A stretch of 51,867 bases of DNA from a bacterium (lineage in GTDB: Bacteria > Bacteroidota > Rhodothermia > Rhodothermales > UBA10348): positions 1-51,867 of the forward strand of contig JABMOI010000100.1 of assembly GCA_013204185.1 (NCBI GenBank). Reading direction: 5' to 3'. The notes beneath the pieces were generated by a model that was not told the origin of the DNA, ran no database searches, and worked only from the letters and a program-made list of their open reading frames with translations. Made by a program: the position numbers and the translations under genes. This document shows positions 3,456 through 45,358 of this stretch, piece after piece. Each line of letters begins with the position of its first letter. Within the stretch, counting starts at the first letter, position 1.

Positions 3456-6400
3456 TTACTTGATGAGAGCCAATTTTCCAGTTTTTTCGCCGACGCCAGG
3501 AGCTTCGATATGGTAGAAATACACACCATATGAGACATCTAGGTTCGTTCTGGACCTCAAATCCCAGCTTACGGTCCCGTCGTCAATAAAGCCGTCGTGA
3601 TGTAACTCACGAACCAGCTCCCCGCGGGAAGAATAGATGCGAATTCGAGCATCTGCTGGGACGTGGATGAAATCTACTCGTCGCTCACCGCGCCCACTTT
3701 GGATGGTTGGTGCGAGAGGTTTTTCCCAAGAAGCGGCTGCCACATACGGGTTTGGAACCACTTTTATGCGGTCCATCTGGGTTTTGGCATCTTCCGTATC
3801 CGCTCCTGAAGCCGAGGACGAAAATGAATACACATCTCGGAAAGAGAACGGCTTGCGAGTGGCAATCGTGTAAATGTCACTTCCGCCGGGAAACGTTCCG
3901 CCACCCGTTTCGGCTCGAACCGCAAACGTCGCTGTTCTGACGTTATTTATGGTTTCGAAGATGAAAATGAAGTCGGTTGTGGTATCAAATTTTCCGTTAG
4001 GAGCTGCCTCGAAGAACACAAAATCGGCCTCCCGATCTTCCGTCACATTGTAAACCGTGAAATTGGTAGCTGTGGCCACGGCGTTCGGTCCACTCGTTCC
4101 CAGCCTGAACCCACCAACCGATTGGCCAACTGTCTGGTCTGAGAATCGAATCTCGTAATCGTAAGGCACAATAGAGCCTGTAAGGCGCCAGCTCGTCACG
4201 TTCGTTCGGTCCACGAAGATCGAAACCTTGCCTTCTGGATTATTCCAAGACGTCCGATCGCGGTCCAATGCCGTAACATCGTTGTTGAACACGAGTCGGA
4301 GGCCATCGAAAATGACGGACTCTACGTCCGTAATAGCCTCTGGCTCTACAACCGTAAACCCGTCCTGTTTAACAGAGAACGTACTGGATCTCGAACCTTC
4401 GTTGCCGAATACAATTTCGTATTGCGAGTCGTTTTGAAGCCTACGCGGATCCAACACTTCGACAAAGACTTCTCCTGTTCCAGGTCCCGCTGTGTGCACT
4501 ATTTCCTCGGAGACATTGCCCTCATAAAAGCCTGCAACCGGCGCATTGGGAACGACCTCAACGACGTTTTTGTCCGTTTTCACCGTTCCATCTTCAGTTA
4601 CCGTGGCCGTCCGGCTGTTTTCAGCAGGGAAAAACACGTCACTGCCAAAATCGTAAGACGATACGGCATAGTAGTACGTACGGCCGTTTTCGACATCACG
4701 ATCCACAAAGGAGTGCTTCAATCCGGTGTCGTCTCCGAGCGTGAAAGGCACGCCCCTAACCCGTTCCATCACGGACTGCTGACCAAACCAAAGGCCAGAC
4801 CTTCCGTTTTTAAGGTCGTATTGAGCAATAGGTGCAAGGATTGCCGGATTACCAAATACGTCTGTAACGGGGCGCGGATCGCGGAAAAACGGATCCGTGC
4901 TTTTGTAGATCTTGTATCCTTCAAAGTCCATTCCCAGCACAGGGTCAATGGACTGCTCAGATTTAGCATCCCAGAACAGCGTCACTTTCTTGTCGCCCGG
5001 AACGGCTTGAAGGAGTGGCTTGTCTGGAGGACGAGCGAAATTGTAGTTCCGGTCGTAAATCTCTTGGACCGTTACCACGTTGTTCGTGATGGTAGCCAGT
5101 TTCTGCGCGAAGTCCTCCCCGTTTCCAAAAACAAGCGCCATGGAGAATCGGTGCGTTTGTCCCGGCTCCAATCGGAAGTATCCAGAACCGTAAATGAAGT
5201 CTCCGTCTACACCGCCTTGGCTCTGCTGCGAAACCAATTCTGCGTTCGTTGTAAAGAACCCGGGTGAAAGCGCTTCCCACAACCGCTGGTCGTCGTTCAT
5301 CCGGACGCCTCCCGGAGGTGTGAAGTAGAAGAAGCTGGATAGCCCAACCTGGTCTGTTTCGCTCACGTCCGTGCCTTCAAACCGAGGCTCGCCAACCGAT
5401 GGAACGCCATCTCCTTCACCAACGTCGCCGGTGCCAGCTCTTCCGTCTGCTCCTACGTCGTCATTGAATACGTCCCAGTCGCCATCGTTATCAATTCCGT
5501 CTCGGTTGTCTTCATCGATCATCCGATTCAGCATGCCGTGCGTTAGCGAGTCTGCCCGCGTGGCCGTTCTGTTTCGAACGTCGGCGGCAAACTGTACAAA
5601 GTTTTTGTACCTAACGGCCGGTAACTCCTGAATCTGACCTTGGAAGTTTTGTTTTCTTCTTAAGAAGTGGAGTTGCTCATCTTCATCAATCAAGCCGTCG
5701 AGGTCGTCGTCAATCAGGTTTTTCTCAACAACGAGCTGCTCTCCTATCTGGCTTCGAATAATCTTAGTGTTCTCCTCGAGCGTCGTCCCAGCCCCAATTA
5801 CGTGCGTAACTCCTTGGGAGACAACGGTAATTGAAGATCCATCTGATGGCACATAGGTAATACTGCGTTCGAAGGTCGTGCCGTCAGTCAGAATGATTGG
5901 GTCACCAGCCTTCAAGACGCGGGGTTGAAAATCCAACTGGGTAAATACGTTTCCGACACCTTCAGACCCGTCTTTGACGTACGGAAGTCCATCAATATCT
6001 CTTCCTGGCTCCTCAAATGGGTCCCCATCGCCATCGTTATCGATTCCATCCAGTGCGTTGCCGGGGCTCTCCATAAAGGCGTACCCAACGATACCCACAT
6101 TCTGACCTTCATTTCCTTGAAAAGGGGCGGCGTCGTACGAGTATACAATTCGATTCAGCTGGTCAAAGAATGCCAAGTCGTCCTGCGAGTCCCCATCGCC
6201 TCCGACAAGGGTTCCAGCCGTCATACCGACTGCAACACGAGGGTAGGTCGTCGTTCCGGTGTTTGTGATCTCGTAGATCATAAACAGCGCGTCTTGGGCC
6301 AAAAACTGAGTCCACTGTAAGGCGCGGACCTTGACGGCCAATCCCAGCCCATCTCTACTCAGGTTTGTGGAATCGGGATGGAAGAATGGATAGCGCCGCT

Positions 6401-7070
6401 GTAGTTCTTTGTCCGGATGGTCGTCCGCCCAGTAATAAGACTCCAAATCGGCATTGAAGATGTCCCGACCAAAAAAGCCATTCCACGGCGCGCCACCGGT
6501 TTCAGGATTGACCCAAGTAGGCTGATCGGGCCAACGGTTTGGCCACGTTGCTGGGTCGGTGCTTATCGCAGGGCTTTCGTTGTCGTTTTCATTTGAAGCG
6601 AACCCACCCATTGGCTCTAAACCCCAGAAAACACCCTGGTTCGACGGGTCGGTATTGGATCCAGCTCGAGGGTGGCGAGGCGTAACAGCTTTGACTACCA
6701 TCGTGTCTGGCCTCCCATCTCCCGTCAAATCAATCGGGACTTCGGCCACAATCACAGGGACCACATCGCCGATGTAAAAATCGCGCGAGCCTTTCGGCCA
6801 GTTCCCACGTGTTTCTCCAACACCTGCCCAAAGGCCTGTGTTGAAAAACGTGATCCCGATCTGATTCCCGTCGTGGATATTCTTTTTCTCGTTATCCCGA
6901 CTACCCCAGTATTGAGAGTTGAACAAGAAGTCCGGAAGCAATGCTCGGCTTTGCGCCGTAACAACTGAGGTAGGCATGAGAAACAAGCCTAACAAAGCTA
7001 GGATTGTGACATTGCGCGCCATGGTCGAAAATGAGTTTCCCATGGCCGATAGTGAGTTTCTTTGTGTCAT
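3456..7070 (-). CDS. Large secreted T9SS cargo with calcium-binding-type Asp repeats and FN3-like domain
   Basis: 1204 residues if translation starts at the ATG at 7070, which has GAGAG upstream. The alternative ATG at 7091 adds 7 residues, and ATG 7022 sits directly at the signal peptide (MARNVTILALLG...TAQ). Visible features are D-N-D-G-D-G-D-type acidic loops near residues 350, 463 and 530, like those of thrombospondin type 3 repeats; an FN3-like stretch around residue 700 (VTLFWDAKS, GYKIYKS, YYYAVSSYD); and a terminal T9SS-type sorting domain (VVPNPYVAAASWE, RIRIYSSRGELVREL, YGVYFYHIEAPG). Similar long proteins follow TonB receptors in Rhodothermota. It has no SusD features, although it takes the position where susD would follow susC. 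A role in substrate capture is inferred from the neighbours only. Confidence 0.8.
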   Translation of the reverse strand: MTQRNSLSAMGNSFSTMARNVTILALLGLFLMPTSVVTAQSRALLPDFLFNSQYWGSRDNEKKNIHDGNQIGITFFNTGLWAGVGETRGNWPKGSRDFYIGDVVPVIVAEVPIDLTGDGRPDTMVVKAVTPRHPRAGSNTDPSNQGVFWGLEPMGGFASNENDNESPAISTDPATWPNRWPDQPTWVNPETGGAPWNGFFGRDIFNADLESYYWADDHPDKELQRRYPFFHPDSTNLSRDGLGLAVKVRALQWTQFLAQDALFMIYEITNTGTTTYPRVAVGMTAGTLVGGDGDSQDDLAFFDQLNRIVYSYDAAPFQGNEGQNVGIVGYAFMESPGNALDGIDNDGDGDPFEEPGRDIDGLPYVKDGSEGVGNVFTQLDFQPRVLKAGDPIILTDGTTFERSITYVPSDGSSITVVSQGVTHVIGAGTTLEENTKIIRSQIGEQLVVEKNLIDDDLDGLIDEDEQLHFLRRKQNFQGQIQELPAVRYKNFVQFAADVRNRTATRADSLTHGMLNRMIDEDNRDGIDNDGDWDVFNDDVGADGRAGTGDVGEGDGVPSVGEPRFEGTDVSETDQVGLSSFFYFTPPGGVRMNDDQRLWEALSPGFFTTNAELVSQQSQGGVDGDFIYGSGYFRLEPGQTHRFSMALVFGNGEDFAQKLATITNNVVTVQEIYDRNYNFARPPDKPLLQAVPGDKKVTLFWDAKSEQSIDPVLGMDFEGYKIYKSTDPFFRDPRPVTDVFGNPAILAPIAQYDLKNGRSGLWFGQQSVMERVRGVPFTLGDDTGLKHSFVDRDVENGRTYYYAVSSYDFGSDVFFPAENSRTATVTEDGTVKTDKNVVEVVPNAPVAGFYEGNVSEEIVHTAGPGTGEVFVEVLDPRRLQNDSQYEIVFGNEGSRSSTFSVKQDGFTVVEPEAITDVESVIFDGLRLVFNNDVTALDRDRTSWNNPEGKVSIFVDRTNVTSWRLTGSIVPYDYEIRFSDQTVGQSVGGFRLGTSGPNAVATATNFTVYNVTEDREADFVFFEAAPNGKFDTTTDFIFIFETINNVRTATFAVRAETGGGTFPGGSDIYTIATRKPFSFRDVYSFSSSASGADTEDAKTQMDRIKVVPNPYVAAASWEKPLAPTIQSGRGERRVDFIHVPADARIRIYSSRGELVRELHHDGFIDDGTVSWDLRSRTNLDVSYGVYFYHIEAPGVGEKTGKLALIK

Positions 7071-37885: not shown

Positions 37886-38872
37886 ATGGAAACGTTAATG
37901 ACTGCAACGGGCGTTATGGTGATTGGTATCATCGTATTGGCCCTTATCGTGTTTATGTACTTCATCCCGCTGGGCCTTTGGGTCACGGCGTACTTTTCTG
38001 GAGTGCGCGTTAAGCTGATACGGGATCTCATGGGAATGAGGCTTCGGAAAGTACCTCCGGTGCTCATTATTCGACCGCTTATTACAGCACACAAAGCCGG
38101 CATCGAGGTGGACGCGCAACAACTTGAAGCCCATTACCTGGCTGGTGGTCAGGTGCAAAAAGTTGTCAATGCCTTGATTTCAGCTGATAAAGCGAATATT
38201 GACTTGACGTTTGAGCGGGCTACCGCCATTGACCTAGCTGGTCGGGACGTCTTCGAAGCCGTCCAAACATCGGTTAACCCAAAAGTGATTGAAACGCCGG
38301 CTATCTCGGCTGTGGCAAAAGATGGGATCCAGGTCCGCGCCATTGCTCGCGTAACCGTGCGGGCCAACATAGAGCGCCTCGTCGGGGGAGCTGGTGAAGA
38401 AACCATCATTGCTCGTGTTGGCGAAGGGATTGTATCCACGATTGGTTCATCGGCTACCCACAAAGCGGTTCTTGAAAATCCAGATTCGATTTCCAAAATG
38501 GTATTGGCCAAAGGGCTAGATTCGGGAACGGCGTTTGAGATCCTCTCGATTGATATTGCGGATGTTGACGTGGGCGAAAACATCGGCGCAAAACTTCAAA
38601 CAGACCAAGCCGGAGCCGATCTTAAAATTGCTCAAGCAAAAGCGGAAGAGCGCCGGGCTGCGGCCGTGGCCCATGAGCAGGAAATGATTGCGTTAGTTCA
38701 AGAACAGCGTGCCAAAGTGGTTGCAGCAGAGGCGGAAATTCCGTTGGCCATGGCCGAAGCGTTTCGGAAGGGGCACCTAGGAATTATGGACTACTACAAC
38801 ATGAAGAACGTTGAGGCCGATACGCACATGAGACGTTCTATTGGTGGCTCAGGCGAAACTAGAAAAGATTAG
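37886..38872 (+). CDS. floA: Flotillin-like protein FloA
   Basis: 328 residues, usual for FloA/YqfA. An N-terminal hairpin membrane segment (about residues 8-35) anchors it in the inner membrane; then the SPFH-like domain ([35 protein letters not shown]) and a Glu-Ala-rich coiled coil ([19 protein letters not shown]). FloA organises membrane microdomains and affects fluidity, and in Bacillus has roles in secretion and sporulation; the role here is unknown. It lies in a group moaA-moaC-floA. A PspA cluster, also tied to membrane state, is 4 kb away on the other strand. Confidence 0.92.
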
Positions 38873-39441: not shown

Positions 39442-40740
39442 TTAGCCTATCGCGGCGATAGAGTCTGGTTGCCGCGTAATTCTCACCAAGTCAATGCGGT
39501 AGGCAGTCGCCCGCAAGATCACAAAGGAAAACCCGTCCAATTCAAACTCTGCTCGGGGTTCTGGGATCGCACCTAGTTTTTCCAACAAATAGCCGGCAAT
39601 GGTCTCGTAGTCGCCCTCGGGCAAATCGATTCCCATTTTTTCTAATAATTCGTCTATATGGACCCTACCGCTCGCGATCACGGCAGTCTGGTTGATCATC
39701 CTGAGCGTGTTGTCGTCGGTGTCGAATTCGTCTTGAATGTCTCCGAAAATCTCTTCCAACAGGTCTTCGCTCGTCACCAAGCCCGCCGTTCCGCCATATT
39801 CATCGATTACGATGGCAATAGATGTTTTCCGTGCCAGAAACTCCTTCAGTAATTCCTTCGAGAGCTTCGTTTCAGGCACAAAAGTAGCCGAACGCATCAT
39901 TTCTGCAAGATCCTGGGGCTCATTGAACAGATCATAGGCAAACGCAATCCCTACAATGTTGTCAATGTTTTCCTTGTAGATCGGAATCTTCGAGTGGCCC
40001 GATTCTACAAAAAGTTGTTGGACTTCGGTGAGCTCGGCCCCAACTTCCAACGCCACAATATCCGTTCGAGGACACATTGATTCTTTGACTCGAATGGTGC
40101 TCATCGCAAACACATTCGAGAGCAACGTGCTTTCCTCTTCATCCAGATCTAATTCCCCAGTCCGCTTGCTTTCTTCGATCATCAACTCAAAATCTCGGCG
40201 CATGAACTGAGAAAAAGAATTCGAATCCGCCTTTAGAGCCTTCATTAAAAAGTTAGCGGACCATCTCGCTACCCAAATCATGGGGAGTAAGATGTAATAG
40301 AAAATGCGTAAGGGCACGGCGAGAGCGAAAACCGCTCTATTGGCAATTTCTCGGAGTACTGACTTTGGAATAATCTCTCCAATAATCAGAACAACAAATG
40401 AGGCCACAACCGTCTGAGTGATAAAGGCCAAAATGCCGGCAGCACCCTCCTGAAGGCCCAAGATGTTGAAATAAAACGACTGGAACGGACCCTCCAAATA
40501 CAATGCGATGAGAGTGGAGTAGATGACCAGAGCAAAGTTATTGCCAACCAATGTCGTGGTTAGCAGCGTAGCTGGGTCTTCTAAAAACTGTGAAACGATC
40601 CGCCCAACAACTCCGCCACGTCGTGCAAAAACCTCAACACGCAGTCTGTTGGCCGCGACGAAGGCAATTTCGGATCCAGAAAAGAATGCGCTTAAAACAA
40701 GCGTCAACAGGATTAGAAAAACTTCCATGGTCAGTTGCAC
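39442..40740 (-). CDS. CNNM/CorC (HlyC-type) domain membrane protein
   Basis: 432 residues; ATG at 40740, with a second Met 4 residues in. An N-terminal CNNM (DUF21) domain with four hydrophobic segments (FLILLTLVLSAFFSGSEIAF to about residue 155), then two CBS domains (RVKESMCPRTDIVALE; GHSKIPIYKENIDNIVGI; IVIDEYGGTAGLVTSEDLLEEI), then the CorC_HlyC C-terminal domain (VHIDELLEKMGIDLPEGDYETIAGYLLEKLG). Members export Mg2+ or Na+/Mg2+ or respond to magnesium; older names include hemolysin. Exact ion is unknown. Downstream of the enoyl-CoA hydratase gene on the same strand, 28 bases away. Confidence 0.88.
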   Translation of the reverse strand: MQLTMEVFLILLTLVLSAFFSGSEIAFVAANRLRVEVFARRGGVVGRIVSQFLEDPATLLTTTLVGNNFALVIYSTLIALYLEGPFQSFYFNILGLQEGAAGILAFITQTVVASFVVLIIGEIIPKSVLREIANRAVFALAVPLRIFYYILLPMIWVARWSANFLMKALKADSNSFSQFMRRDFELMIEESKRTGELDLDEEESTLLSNVFAMSTIRVKESMCPRTDIVALEVGAELTEVQQLFVESGHSKIPIYKENIDNIVGIAFAYDLFNEPQDLAEMMRSATFVPETKLSKELLKEFLARKTSIAIVIDEYGGTAGLVTSEDLLEEIFGDIQDEFDTDDNTLRMINQTAVIASGRVHIDELLEKMGIDLPEGDYETIAGYLLEKLGAIPEPRAEFELDGFSFVILRATAYRIDLVRITRQPDSIAAIG

Positions 40741-40768: not shown

Positions 40769-41551
40769 TTATCGACCTTTAAAGTCAGGTTTTCGTTTGT
40801 TCAGAAACGCATCGACGCCTTCCTGAAAGTCCTCTGTAGCACATGCTTGTCCAAACAATGCCGCTTCATGTCGAAGCCCCTCGGTCTGAGGTAAATCTGC
40901 AGCGCGTAGAGCTTCCAAGCACAAAGAAACAGCTATAGGAGCTTTTGAAAGAATGGTCATCAACAGCTTTTTTGCTCCTTCCATCAATTCATCAGGCTCA
41001 AACACGTGATTTACTAAGCCGATCGCATACGCTCGGTCAGCATTAATCATGGCGCCCGTCAAAACAAGTTCTGTGGCAAGCCCCTTTCCAACAAGACGCG
41101 GCAAACGCTGAGTCCCACCGTACCCTGGCAAAATGCCAAGATTTACCTCGGGCTGTCCAAATATGGCGTTGGTTGAAGCAACTCGCATGTGGCACGCTAG
41201 AGCCAACTCGCTTCCGCCTCCCAAAGCAAACCCGTTCACCACGGCAATCACCGGTTTACCTAAGCCTTCGATTTGATTAAAAACCGACTGGCCATACTCG
41301 GCAAACTTCTTTCCTTCGATCGGGCCAAGGCCCTTGAATCTTGAAATGTCTGCTCCGGCTACAAAGCTCTTTGGTCCTGCACCCGTAAGCAATACTCCCT
41401 TGACTCGTTCCTCAGAAGCCGCTCCCTCAAACCAGTGGCCCAGCTCCCGTATGACGTCGGCATTTAAGGCATTCAGCTTATCGGGACGATTTATCGTGAC
41501 TACGGCAACGCCGTGATCATCAATATCAACTAACAGTGTGGAGTAAGACAT
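40769..41551 (-). CDS. Enoyl-CoA hydratase (crotonase family)
   Basis: 260 residues, typical length. Oxyanion hole motifs SFVAGADI and GFALGGGSELAL; both catalytic acids are present (Glu in GGGSELAL and Glu in QPEVNLGILPGYGGTQRLPR). It hydrates 2-enoyl-CoA to 3-hydroxyacyl-CoA in beta-oxidation or related pathways. Clear fold, subfamily is not resolved. In a minus-strand group between the PspA cluster and the CNNM/CorC gene, with 61- and 28-base gaps. Confidence 0.9.
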   Translation of the reverse strand: MSYSTLLVDIDDHGVAVVTINRPDKLNALNADVIRELGHWFEGAASEERVKGVLLTGAGPKSFVAGADISRFKGLGPIEGKKFAEYGQSVFNQIEGLGKPVIAVVNGFALGGGSELALACHMRVASTNAIFGQPEVNLGILPGYGGTQRLPRLVGKGLATELVLTGAMINADRAYAIGLVNHVFEPDELMEGAKKLLMTILSKAPIAVSLCLEALRAADLPQTEGLRHEAALFGQACATEDFQEGVDAFLNKRKPDFKGR

Positions 41552-41612: not shown

Positions 41613-42485
41613 CTATTCGCGTGTGCGCGTTCCAGAAGTCATTGAGGCCTCACTAACTGGCTCTTCAAACGTGTCCAATTCGTTCAGCAGATCGGCAGGG
41701 TTTCCAAATACCTCTTCCAATTCCTGGACTGATGCTTGAGTCTCCTCAACCTCAGACAGCAACGTGTCGAGCTGGAACGAGATTTCTTCTGGATTGCGGA
41801 GGGTCAGTGATTGTTCGTGGATGTACTTGACGACGTCCTCAATGGTCTCGAGCTGGGCTTCAATGATTTCCAGATTTTCCGCACCTTTTTTTGAACGCTC
41901 AAGCCGTTGTTCCAAAATATTCAAACGCCGCGCCTTAATGGCTCGAACGCGCGGGCTGTCGTCTTCCATATCTACGCGAAGCGCATCAATTGACCGAACG
42001 ACTTCATTTTCGGTCCCTGCTTGGGCTGAATATTCGTACCGTTCTTTTTGATACAGAAGTTTTAGGTAGGACTCCAACAAGCCGTCAATTTTCTTGAGGT
42101 GCGAATCCAACATACCCTGAGACGCATAACTCAACTTCTGATAGTTGATCCGGATGTCCTTTTCCGTTTTGCGCAGTTTCGCATATCTGCGACGATGAGG
42201 AGCAGCAAGGCTTTGAAATAATTCTTTTTGGGACGGCGGTTTCGAATGCTCAGCAGCGCGGCGCGACCGAATTGCTTTCCGAAATCGTTCATTGCGCGGC
42301 AATGAACCCAAAAATGCCAATTCGACCCCTGCAGTAAAAATCAAGGCTGCGTCAAAAGGCCATGTAGCACCCGTCATACTCACGCTGAAGGCAAGCAACA
42401 TGGATACGATCAAAAAAGTGAGATTCCACGGATGTAGAAACGCCTCTTTGGTGTAGTTAATATCCAGGTCTCGTGTTTTCAACAA
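41613..42485 (-). CDS. Membrane-anchored coiled-coil protein of the PspA cluster
   Basis: 290 residues; family not recognised. Near the N-terminus, after HPWNLTF, a hydrophobic pair (about residues 22-37 and 44-60) forms a short double membrane anchor followed by a basic patch (RNERFRKAIRSRRAAEH). From about 80 to the end it is mostly helical and charged, with coiled-coil-like spacing (LRKTEKDIRI; LLESYLKLLYQKERYEY; RRLNILEQRLERSKKGAENLE; LDTLLSEVEETQASVQELEEVF). Lies 63 bases after the PspA-tail gene on the same strand, thus third of pspA, PspA-tail, this. Topology suggests the coils face the cytoplasm, where PspA acts. Membrane receptor or sensor for the PspA layer is the inference. Confidence 0.65.
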   Translation of the reverse strand: MLKTRDLDINYTKEAFLHPWNLTFLIVSMLLAFSVSMTGATWPFDAALIFTAGVELAFLGSLPRNERFRKAIRSRRAAEHSKPPSQKELFQSLAAPHRRRYAKLRKTEKDIRINYQKLSYASQGMLDSHLKKIDGLLESYLKLLYQKERYEYSAQAGTENEVVRSIDALRVDMEDDSPRVRAIKARRLNILEQRLERSKKGAENLEIIEAQLETIEDVVKYIHEQSLTLRNPEEISFQLDTLLSEVEETQASVQELEEVFGNPADLLNELDTFEEPVSEASMTSGTRTRE

Positions 42486-42548
42486 AGTTCGGGAATGAAG
42501 AATGGAAGTCTGATTACTTAAACAACTAGTGTTTAACGAGAAACCGCT

Positions 42549-43070
42549 TTATGGTTTCATCCTTCCGATAGTCTTTTCAGGCAAATCGGAAGATGTGGTT
42601 GGTTTGGGCTTCTCTGAAAGAGGAGTTCGACTTGAAGATCCGGAAGGACTTGATTGCGAAGATGCATTCTGAACGGGTGCGCTTTGAACGGGTGCCTTCG
42701 CGGCATTTTCCGTCGAGGAACTCCCTTCCAGTTTCATCTGACGAATCAATTCCTTAGCGCGCGCTTTTTTGATCGCTTCCATATCTGCTTCGAGCGCAGC
42801 CGCATCCTGAGCCTCTGAAACGGGATCCATGTCAACTGAATCGAGAGCGACTTCCATTCGGGCTTCGTTTTGCAACGTGCCCATCTGAAGACGATCCAGC
42901 ATCTCGCGATGTTCGTCGTACAGTTCGTTCATTCCCGTGGCCATGTCGGTAACCGCTCGGGAATTTTTTGACTGTTGTACGAACTGCTTATTGGCCTTTT
43001 TCAGATCACGAATCTTTCGAAGGTGATCCTTTTCGGCTTCTTTGAATCGTTCAAATTCTTCAGGAGTCAT
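42549..43070 (-). CDS. PspA C-terminal-region paralogue (PspA-tail protein)
   Basis: 173 residues. Residues ~50-118 align with residues ~165-219 of the adjacent PspA: EML.RLQ..T..NEARME.ALDSVD and the later (A)KEL(I/V)(R/K)Q.KLE. Both also end with KTIG(K/R) after a Ser/Pro-rich linker (here residues 120-160). The PspA membrane-binding N-terminal helices are missing; instead a charged helix (EFERFKEAEKDHLRKIRDLKKANKQF) leads the protein. No signal peptide or membrane segment. It looks like a partial gene duplication kept as an own gene, 9 bases after pspA and probably cotranscribed. Could cap or modulate PspA polymers; this is inference. Confidence 0.75.
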   Translation of the reverse strand: MTPEEFERFKEAEKDHLRKIRDLKKANKQFVQQSKNSRAVTDMATGMNELYDEHREMLDRLQMGTLQNEARMEVALDSVDMDPVSEAQDAAALEADMEAIKKARAKELIRQMKLEGSSSTENAAKAPVQSAPVQNASSQSSPSGSSSRTPLSEKPKPTTSSDLPEKTIGRMKP

Positions 43071-43079
43071 GATCGATTC

Positions 43080-43847
43080 CTAATTCTGAGTGCGCTGTTT
43101 ACCGATGGTTTTACCGGCTGATTCATCTTCTTGGTCGGCAACATCTAGTTGTGGCTCCTCTGAAGAACCAGACGTATCGCCCACTCCCATTTCGAGTTTG
43201 AACTGCTTGACTAGCTCAGATGCACGTATTTTCTGCGCATCTTCCTCGATTTGCAAGCCTTCGGTATCGACTGAGTCGAGTGCCATTTCCATGCGCGCTT
43301 CGTTGCGAGCTGTCTGCTCTTGCAGACGGGTCAGCATCTCGTCGTGAGTCTGGTCAATTCCAGCTACTTCGAAGGATTCGAGTGTATCTGCAACTTTAGC
43401 CTGCCATTTTGCACGTTCGTGAGCACGAAGCGCATCTTTAGCTTCCGCAATTTTGCGCTCTTTTTCACGCATAAAGGCTTTTTTAACCTGAAGAGCCTTG
43501 TCGTATGCGGCAGACGCATATTTCAATTGCTCTTTGGTTGAGGCAAGATTCTCCCGCGTGGATTCCAGTCGCATTGCGTACCGTTCCGCGATATCGTCGC
43601 GGCCGGCTTGAATCCCAGCTTTGATTTTGGAGGTCAAATCTGCCAGTTCGTTTTCGTATTTACGAACCTCTTTTTGCAGCATCATCACGTTGGCTTTCAC
43701 CGTCGCGATGTTTTCATTCATTTTCGGAACCTGATCGTTCAGCTCCCTAATATTCTGTTCTAAAATCAGTTTTGGATCTTCTAAAGCCGAGATAGCTCCG
43801 CCAAAAACTGATTTAACAAATCGTGTGAATCGTGCCCAGATCGACAT
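43080..43847 (-). CDS. pspA: PspA/IM30 (Vipp1)-family membrane-stress protein
   Basis: 255 residues from the ATG at 43847 (MSIWARFTRF); an upstream start at 43916 is not supported. The N-terminal amphipathic helix, ALEDPKLILEQNIRELNDQVPK segment and the long helical hairpin (about 30-150) are typical of PspA/IM30, which assembles into ESCRT-III-like rods or rings on the inner membrane. The C-terminal helical part (165-219) is duplicated in the next gene and the tail ends with GKTIGK. No pspF, pspB or pspC is nearby. A Bacteroidota-type promoter (TATATTTG) is seen 44 bases upstream. First gene of a three-gene cluster. Confidence 0.9.
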   Translation of the reverse strand: MSIWARFTRFVKSVFGGAISALEDPKLILEQNIRELNDQVPKMNENIATVKANVMMLQKEVRKYENELADLTSKIKAGIQAGRDDIAERYAMRLESTRENLASTKEQLKYASAAYDKALQVKKAFMREKERKIAEAKDALRAHERAKWQAKVADTLESFEVAGIDQTHDEMLTRLQEQTARNEARMEMALDSVDTEGLQIEEDAQKIRASELVKQFKLEMGVGDTSGSSEEPQLDVADQEDESAGKTIGKQRTQN

Positions 43848-43890
43848 GTCTTTTTTAGTATAGTGTTTACAGGACTCGTTATCCGTTTGG

Positions 43891-43925
43891 CAAATATAGT
43901 GATGAAGACGAATCAATCATCCAAA
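43891..43925 (-). promoter_or_regulatory. Putative Bacteroidota-type promoter of pspA
   Basis: On the minus strand TATATTTG (43891-43898) matches the TAnnTTTG -7 box exactly, and TTTG (43922-43925) lies 23 bases upstream as -33 element. The -7 box ends 44 bases before the pspA ATG. Spacing is at the wide end of the known range. Confidence 0.45.
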
Positions 43926-44014
43926 TACAGACAAATAGGACACAAATCAAACTATTAACATAACAAGAAGCGAGTTTTTGCCTCTAATGTCTGCCTTCCT
44001 ACGTAAAGTTTGCC

Positions 44015-45358
44015 TTATGGATTCAACCACTTACCATCAGAATACCGATCTTTTATTCGACTCGTCCCAATTTCACGCTCCGAACCGATTTCAAACGCGG
44101 TGGATAGTAGGCTTGCGGCTTGCTCAAATCGATCCGAAGTCGAGGCAACAAGTTGCGCAATGACGTCTCCAACCTGCACCTCGCTTCCTGCCGATACGCT
44201 AAGAATTATGCCTGCCCGAGGATCTACAACATCCTCTTTTTTGACGCGTCCGGCCCCCAATGAAACGGCGGCTCGCCCAACGATGCGGGCATCAATGTGC
44301 GATATGGTACCTGATTGCTGAGCATGGATATCCTGCATGGCTTGTCCCTTGGTGCGGACCGCAGGGTCTTGAATACTCTCCAATTGACCACCCTGCCGCG
44401 CCACGAGCTCTTCAAACTTGGCCCATGCTCGTCCTGAGGAAATAGATGCCTCTGCCATTCGAAGCCCCTCTTCAAGCGAGCTGGCTTTGCCGCCAGCCAC
44501 AATCATTTCGGCCGAAAGGGCTAGTGTCACCTCCATAACATCTTCGGGTCCTTTTCCGTGCAAACAATCTATTGACTCAGCGATTTCAGGCCAATTGCCA
44601 ATCGCAAACCCGAGCGGTTGGTTCATGTCCGTTAAGAGCGCGACGGTACGTTTTCCGAATTGTTCTCCCAAATCGGTGAGCGTCTGTGCGAGCTTGCGCG
44701 CCTGAGTCTCGCTCTGCATAAAGGCACCAGACCCGAATTTTACATCCAACACCAGCGCATCAATTCCTTCGGCTAACTTTTTAGATAAAATGGATGCCGC
44801 AATGAATGGGATGAATTCAACGGTAGCCGTAACATCGCGCAGGGCGTAGAGCTTTTTGTCTGCGGGGGCAATGTCGTCCGTTTGCCCAATCATGACCACT
44901 CCAATTTCGGCGAGCTGCTGCCGATAGGACGCAATGGACATCTGGGTAGAAAACCCTGGGATGGACTCTAGTTTGTCGAGTGTGCCGCCCGTGTGACCAA
45001 GCCCACGCCCAGAAATCATGGGCACTGGAACACCGCAGCTAGCCACGATAGGGGCCAAAATGATTGACATTTTGTCCCCCACTCCGCCTGTTGAGTGCTT
45101 GTCTACTTTCCTGCCTGGAATGTCGGAAAGGTCTAGGACACTGCCCGAATGGAGCATGCAGTGTGTCAATCCGACCATTTCTTCGCCATTCATTCCGTTG
45201 AGATACGAAGCCATGAGGAATGCCGCTGCCTGATAGTCGGGGATGTCGCCCGAGGTGACTCCATCTACAAAACCAGCAATCTCAGTGCGAGTCAGATTAC
45301 CACCGTCTCGCTTTTTGAGGATCAGGTCAATTGGATTGAGGGAGGGCCGTGCGGTCAT
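44015..45358 (-). CDS. Pyrimidine-nucleoside/thymidine phosphorylase
   Basis: 447 residues. Family signature KHSTGGVGDKMS and GLGHTGGTLDKLESIPGF, with the phosphate-binding and glycine-rich loops intact; C-terminal domain with HIDARIVGRAAVSLGAGR. It splits thymidine and uridine (Pdp type) or thymidine (DeoA type) with phosphate, to base plus (deoxy)ribose 1-phosphate. Which of the two cannot be settled here; the sequence style, with SGRGLGHT and length, suits Pdp. It is alone, 204 bases from rpmE, whose terminator lies between. Confidence 0.9.
   Translation of the reverse strand: MTARPSLNPIDLILKKRDGGNLTRTEIAGFVDGVTSGDIPDYQAAAFLMASYLNGMNGEEMVGLTHCMLHSGSVLDLSDIPGRKVDKHSTGGVGDKMSIILAPIVASCGVPVPMISGRGLGHTGGTLDKLESIPGFSTQMSIASYRQQLAEIGVVMIGQTDDIAPADKKLYALRDVTATVEFIPFIAASILSKKLAEGIDALVLDVKFGSGAFMQSETQARKLAQTLTDLGEQFGKRTVALLTDMNQPLGFAIGNWPEIAESIDCLHGKGPEDVMEVTLALSAEMIVAGGKASSLEEGLRMAEASISSGRAWAKFEELVARQGGQLESIQDPAVRTKGQAMQDIHAQQSGTISHIDARIVGRAAVSLGAGRVKKEDVVDPRAGIILSVSAGSEVQVGDVIAQLVASTSDRFEQAASLLSTAFEIGSEREIGTSRIKDRYSDGKWLNP

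Follow-up and report, generated by a model that had tools for sequence, protein, structure and literature searches.

The pspA gene of a bacterium of the Rhodothermales is followed by a gene for a partial paralogue of PspA (g2) and a gene for a coiled-coil protein with a predicted membrane hairpin (g3), and we find that this trio is conserved throughout its little-studied class (Rhodothermia and relatives). PspA and g2 end in the same short tail motif, and a CDC48/Vps4-clade AAA+ ATPase occurs in exactly the genomes that carry g3 and is linked to it on the chromosome in some of them. We propose, with our confidence balanced midway between acceptance and doubt, that these genes form a class-wide membrane-maintenance module, a minimal ESCRT-III/Vps4-like system in which g3 would be the anchor, g2 the polymer regulator and the AAA+ ATPase the means of turnover. 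An earlier note on the same stretch of DNA (the window, 51,867 nucleotides) had singled out the cluster; its observation is confirmed and its interpretation partly supported, and the AAA+ ATPase, a wider block of synteny and PspC genes elsewhere in the genome are additions to it.

A headless PspA paralogue and an anchored coiled-coil protein beside pspA

The three-gene PspA cluster described in the earlier note is present as such: pspA (43080..43847, 255 residues, ATG start at 43847), g2 (42549..43070, 173 residues) and g3 (41613..42485, 289-290 residues) are open reading frames that all run in the same direction on the minus strand, with 9 bases between pspA and g2 and 63 between g2 and g3. 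Judged by its sequence, the 43080-43847 product is a regular member of the PspA/IM30 family in the ESCRT-III superfamily, matching PF04012 over residues 2-207 (E 7e-18; 65.4 bits against a gathering score of 33.9), and its profile aligns with solved Vipp1/PspA chains over residues 1-204; the helix assignments used here follow from the alignment to Vipp1. Mean column identity of PspA within the order is 70%, and the N-terminal helix alpha0 carries conserved positive residues, with W4, R6, F7 and R9 invariant among 68 sequences (for the role of R6 and R9 in this helix, see PMC12358876).

The second gene duplicates only the C-terminal part of PspA, as the note had claimed. Profile comparison with hhalign matches g2 to PspA residues 142-254 with a probability of 99.2% (E 8e-20), and after removal of the tails the match to residues 142-224 persists (98.6%, E 5e-16), while the reversed PspA profile used as a control gives no match to g2. 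The duplicated segment of PspA, residues 142-221 (43185..43424), comprises the end of alpha3 with alpha4 and alpha5, and its counterpart in g2, the alpha4-alpha5 region homologous to PspA 142-224, lies at 42708..42995. Entering the alignment at about the level of PspA residue 142, g2 has alpha4, alpha5 and the tail, but nothing that corresponds to alpha0 or to the alpha1-alpha2/3 hairpin, the parts that build the polymer wall, so that on sequence grounds it is a partial, headless paralogue rather than a full PspA/IM30 member. Its first 46 residues have no match in PspA, and the best-conserved part of the protein is its first 25 residues, a g2-specific N-terminal helix (MTPEE(Y/F)xRxKEAEKxHLR, 42996..43070) likewise unmatched by the PspA profile. 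In an AlphaFold2 model, g2 forms one long helix from residue 3 to 81 and another from 83 to 121, beyond which the tail is disordered; compared with the PDB the model returned zero matches, as expected for two long helices. Pfam gives no significant match for g2, Snf7 included, searches of g2 and g3 against Pfam, NCBIfam and PADLOC return only weak coiled-coil matches, and a PDB sequence search with the two proteins found nothing. Purifying selection acts on both g2 and g3, less tightly on g2 (dN/dS about 0.08-0.26, with dS near saturation), and g2 evolves fastest of the trio, with a mean column identity of 27-34% and a variable length. The possibility that g2 is a pseudogene or resembles PspA by chance was rejected in view of the hhalign homology and the purifying selection.

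The tails that PspA and g2 share end in nearly the same motif, KTIGK near the C-terminus of PspA (43098..43112) and KTIGR at that of g2 (42561..42575). Counted in the last 25 residues, K[TS][ILV]G occurs in 53 of 68 PspA proteins of the Rhodothermales, 5-10 residues from the end, and in 58 of 62 g2 proteins, against a mean of 0.2 after shuffling in either case; in other orders it is found in 19/19 PspA and 17/18 g2. If R is also allowed at the first position ([KR][TS][ILV]G), the g2 tails of some relatives (13 of 62) contain the motif twice. The linker preceding the motif is variable. Docking or recognition sites typically look like this, with a fixed short motif closing a variable, disordered tail, and we suggest that the present motif is one. 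A search for K[TS][ILV]G in g3 found none, nor was there any in four inspected PspA proteins from other classes. To our knowledge, [KR][TS][ILV]G is unrelated in sequence to the MIM motifs.

Translation of g3 more likely begins at the second TTG (42482), and its product was assigned as a membrane-hairpin coiled-coil protein from hydropathy and AlphaFold2. Its two hydrophobic stretches of 19 residues, TM1 (21-39) and TM2 (43-61) at 42300..42422, recur in 70 of 75 homologues, which bears out the description of g3 as a double-spanning coiled-coil protein, and Glu54 within TM2 is invariant (75/75). Because a positive stretch follows TM2, this charge distribution places both termini, by prediction, in the cytoplasm. 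The AlphaFold2 model has a mean pLDDT of 79, rising to about 90 in the helical cytoplasmic domain. Across the 75 members Pfam finds no family match and specifically no Snf7 or PspA match, and hhalign relates g3 to PspA with a probability of only 0.5-1.2%. For the g3 model, the best-scoring Foldseek rows include CdvB2 (E 0.36), next to other helical or BAR-like folds with similar scores; in Foldseek and VIA-align together, many helical or BAR-like rows appear, none is significant and Snf7/ESCRT-III is not singled out. Two genomes outside the order have a disrupted g3, which in one of them is divided over two frames (locus L213 of genome G118, 5541-6439) and in the other contains a stop (locus L209 of G155, 5512-6204), either through sequencing error or through real loss.

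Conservation of the trio and of the surrounding block

Conserved adjacency to pspA, which the earlier note had named as a check, holds class-wide. In the Rhodothermales, pspA lies upstream of g3 in 67/67 named loci with enough sequence, and g2 stands between them in 62 of these (61 recognized by profile, and locus L152 by reading a masked frame); in other orders the corresponding counts are 19/19 and 18/19, so that the order of pspA and g3 is the same in all 86 loci where it is visible. When 296 genomes of the phylum were sampled, g3 was present in 74/74 of the class and, besides two borderline coiled-coil matches, outside it only in genome G316; among the relatives, every genome except one incomplete one has it. 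The tally obtained with the g2 query was left out of the assessment of presence because that query also matches PspA. Median spacing is 23.5 nt between pspA and g2 and 35 nt between g2 and g3, with start and stop overlapping at 23 of 101 g2-g3 junctions. Two lineages have lost g2, which is thus not essential to the module: it is truly absent from one lineage of the Rhodothermales (L127, L132, L133, L134 and L168), where pspA is joined directly to g3 at a distance of 75-100 nt and provides a natural g2-minus comparison, and from one genome of another order.

The trio is itself part of a larger block, recognized from Pfam and the neighbourhood, all on the minus strand in the window: a thymidine/pyrimidine-nucleoside phosphorylase gene upstream (44015..45358) and, downstream, genes for an enoyl-CoA hydratase (ech, 40769..41551) and a CNNM/CorC-HlyC membrane protein (39442..40740). 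We propose no role for the phosphorylase or the hydratase. These genes are also syntenic in most loci, and since the whole block, including two metabolic genes, keeps its order, gene order alone is weak evidence for a functional tie, and part of the adjacency within the trio may be inherited gene order. A reading of the locus as a defence system was dropped, as the locus is a core block and is vertically inherited.

Two further features of the region were recorded. About 2.7 kb from the trio and convergent with it lies a flotillin-like gene, floA (37886-38872, plus strand; PF12127, E 3.5e-160), which also appears in the flanking sequence retrieved for 48 g3 loci; SPFH proteins are PspA partners in other systems. 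The non-coding stretch upstream of pspA (43848-43990) is strikingly conserved in five species of the genus (GTGTCCT...TGTATTT.GATGATTGAT...CATCATTATATT, GGATAACGACTCCCGTTAA), in contrast to the near-saturated synonymous sites of the genes, and probably contains the promoter and a regulator site.

An AAA+ ATPase with the distribution of g3

At a threshold of E <= 1e-40 in the same 296-genome sample, a CDC48/Vps4-clade AAA+ ATPase is encoded in the 74 genomes of the class and in G316 and in 0 of 221 others, the same set of genomes as for g3. As g3 and the ATPase each occur in 1 of 222 genomes outside the class, and in the same one, the chance of the coincidence under independence is about 1 in 222; the pattern shared within the class amounts to a single inherited event, and the co-distribution therefore rests on one class and one outlier. 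The protein, in which Walker A, Walker B and SRH are all intact, belongs to the classical clade; its nearest solved structures are VAT/CDC48, and it is less similar to CdvC, the Vps4 of archaea. In its N-terminal region of about 340 residues, Pfam detects no match and no MIT-type domain; the idea that this half is an inactive AAA domain was rejected as unsupported (1.5% in an hhalign comparison of the two halves).

The ATPase gene is linked to the trio or to g3 in two settings. In the sister order, the gene of 570 residues downstream of CNNM encodes it, giving the arrangement pspA-g2-g3-ech-cnnm-AAA in 17 loci. In G316, which belongs to another class, the g3 homologue is followed directly by the ATPase gene and then by a coiled-coil gene, a 95% identical copy of which stands beside pspA on another contig of that genome, suggesting that both contigs represent the same type of operon. 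This coiled-coil protein of about 236 residues (locus L215, 8702-9412, behind the ATPase; locus L229, 2745-3143, beside PspA) has no clear homologue in the class or in 26 other genomes, and the pspA gene of G316 is followed by a lipoprotein gene and then by one for a solute-binding/LysM protein. In the Rhodothermales examined, the ATPase gene is unlinked to pspA: the window's own genome carries its orthologue at 5051-6949 of contig C32, beside an aldolase gene. The ATPase gene follows a gene resembling class I fructose-bisphosphate aldolase in two Rhodothermales genomes examined, the aldolase-like gene of the window's own genome (G000, locus L235) being at 3748-4827 of C32.

Proposed mechanism and relation to known systems

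In the module that we propose, PspA would polymerise on the stressed inner membrane, as its family does, and g3, a predicted double-spanning protein of that membrane whose two ends and long coiled coil would lie in the cytoplasm, would serve as the anchor and probably sense stress, recruiting or nucleating PspA. The g2 protein, a free alpha4-alpha5-tail unit, could place its alpha5 in the hairpin-tip sites of PspA and, having no hairpin with which to propagate the polymer, would cap, limit or dissolve it. The CDC48/Vps4-clade ATPase would turn the polymer over, and in the least certain of these steps it might do so by gripping the disordered tails that carry [KR][TS][ILV]G. The earlier note had suggested that g2 joins or caps polymers and that g3 recruits them, which we consider plausible. 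In Vipp1, the alpha5 helix of one subunit reaches across the hairpin tip of the subunit three places further on, and no polymers form once alpha5 is removed (PMC8281802). A protein that has alpha4-alpha5 and lacks the hairpin would be expected to be capable of occupying such sites without extending the polymer. An artificial fragment of the E. coli protein, PspA(145-222), self-associates, binds full-length PspA and counteracts it, and it also binds the AAA+ protein PspF and alters its regulation (PMC6003685). The extent of this fragment is nearly that of g2, which accordingly seems to provide in nature, from a gene of its own, a PspA tail fragment studied so far only as an artificial construct.

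In its fullest form, the proposal describes a complete bacterial ESCRT-III/Vps4-like machine fixed class-wide, with a PspA polymer, g3 as hairpin adaptor, g2 for growth control and a dedicated AAA+ disassembly motor that would recognise [KR][TS][ILV]G, a motif carried once by PspA and once or twice by g2; this version has a real chance of being correct, and we put it forward as a tentative possibility. PspA and its g3 anchor might instead constitute the unit, with g2 regulating signalling rather than polymer shape, much as a free C-terminal fragment of PspA inhibits or releases an AAA+ regulator, and with the ATPase a general housekeeping remodelling enzyme co-inherited by descent only. We regard this as rather unlikely, although the separation of the ATPase gene from pspA in the Rhodothermales examined agrees with it, as do the change in PspF regulation caused by a free C-terminal fragment in E. 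coli (PMC6003685) and the two lineages that dispense with g2 and keep pspA and g3. Such an account leaves aside that the ATPase gene shares the block in the sister order and adjoins g3 in G316, and that the enzyme is absent from the 221 other genomes of the phylum sample.

It is improbable, in our estimate, that the trio is held together only by a conserved chromosome stretch, g2 and g3 having roles unrelated to PspA. The thymidine phosphorylase, enoyl-CoA hydratase and CNNM genes are indeed held in place as well, but the trio stays intact in lineages whose upstream or downstream neighbours are changed or missing, g2 is itself a PspA paralogue with the tail motif in common, and the g3 homologue of G316 sits in a different arrangement that appears to include PspA too. 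The rapid evolution of g2, its variable length and its two losses could also mark a decaying duplicate on its way to being lost; its presence in most of the class under clear purifying selection, its unique conserved N-terminal helix and a tail motif that is even duplicated in some lineages make this highly improbable. The module we favour would be informative because its locus supplies a candidate membrane anchor in g3, a candidate motor in the AAA+ ATPase and a candidate recognition motif. Its parts are small enough to reconstitute and the class includes cultured organisms, so that ATP-driven turnover of a bacterial ESCRT-III becomes testable.

The class includes Salinibacter ruber, from which the protein CBH24266.1 presumably comes. 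In its main text, Ravi et al. (2024; PMC11237479) report that Bacteroidetes PspA and Snf7 genes (CBH24266.1) co-occur with a third coiled-coil gene; like the trio, that neighbourhood thus combines PspA with two further genes, one ESCRT-III-like and one for a coiled coil, and it is probably the same locus. The earlier note had suggested an undescribed PspA partner set, and this holds only in part: a trio-like neighbourhood appears in one sentence of that article, whose main text on CBH24266.1 gives no anatomy, distribution, mechanism, AAA+ link or tail motif. The Snf7 label used there was not reproduced for g2 or g3 by any match here. Among the texts found in our literature search, none gives an account of g2 as a headless PspA, of the tail motif, of class-wide fixation or of co-distribution with an AAA+ ATPase; supplementary files of prior work may contain a description. 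The same main text states that the regulation of assembly is unknown for PspA homologues without an associated AAA+ ATPase, and it describes some operons in which PspA, Snf7 homologues with transmembrane segments and AAA+ ATPases occur together (PMC11237479). Two of these, as presented there (OGG56892.1 and AEY64321.1), combine PspA with a helical protein anchored in the membrane, an AAA+ ATPase and a protein that binds solutes or peptidoglycan, and the G316 loci are similar; the present system differs in being class-wide, in including g2 and in having the ATPase encoded elsewhere in the Rhodothermales.

Comparison with better-known systems gives a mixed picture. With archaeal and eukaryotic ESCRT-III and Vps4 the module shares a polymer of the superfamily, a shortened paralogue, a classical-clade AAA+ ATPase and a short C-terminal motif; unlike them, it is bacterial and its ATPase has no MIT domain in Pfam. 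In B. subtilis YdjFGHI, PspA is likewise encoded with membrane proteins, and YdjI and its partners recruit it to the membrane (PMC8581546), whereas Pfam finds neither an SPFH nor a TPM or zinc-ribbon domain in g3. The E. coli pspF-pspABC system resembles the present one in its PspA effector and in the PspC-domain genes of the genome; here, by contrast, PspB does not exceed the cut-off, PspC is unlinked, and g2 and g3 are the partners. The locus does not have pspB and pspC alongside pspA, as a classical psp operon does. The earlier note had stated that classical pspF, pspB and pspC are missing, and for pspB this agrees with scores below the cut-off in 16/16 genomes; for pspC it is true of the cluster and not of the genome, PspC-domain genes being present in 16/16 genomes tested. 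In the window's genome (G000), two adjacent PspC-domain genes, unlinked to pspA, lie at 2993-3428 of contig C241.
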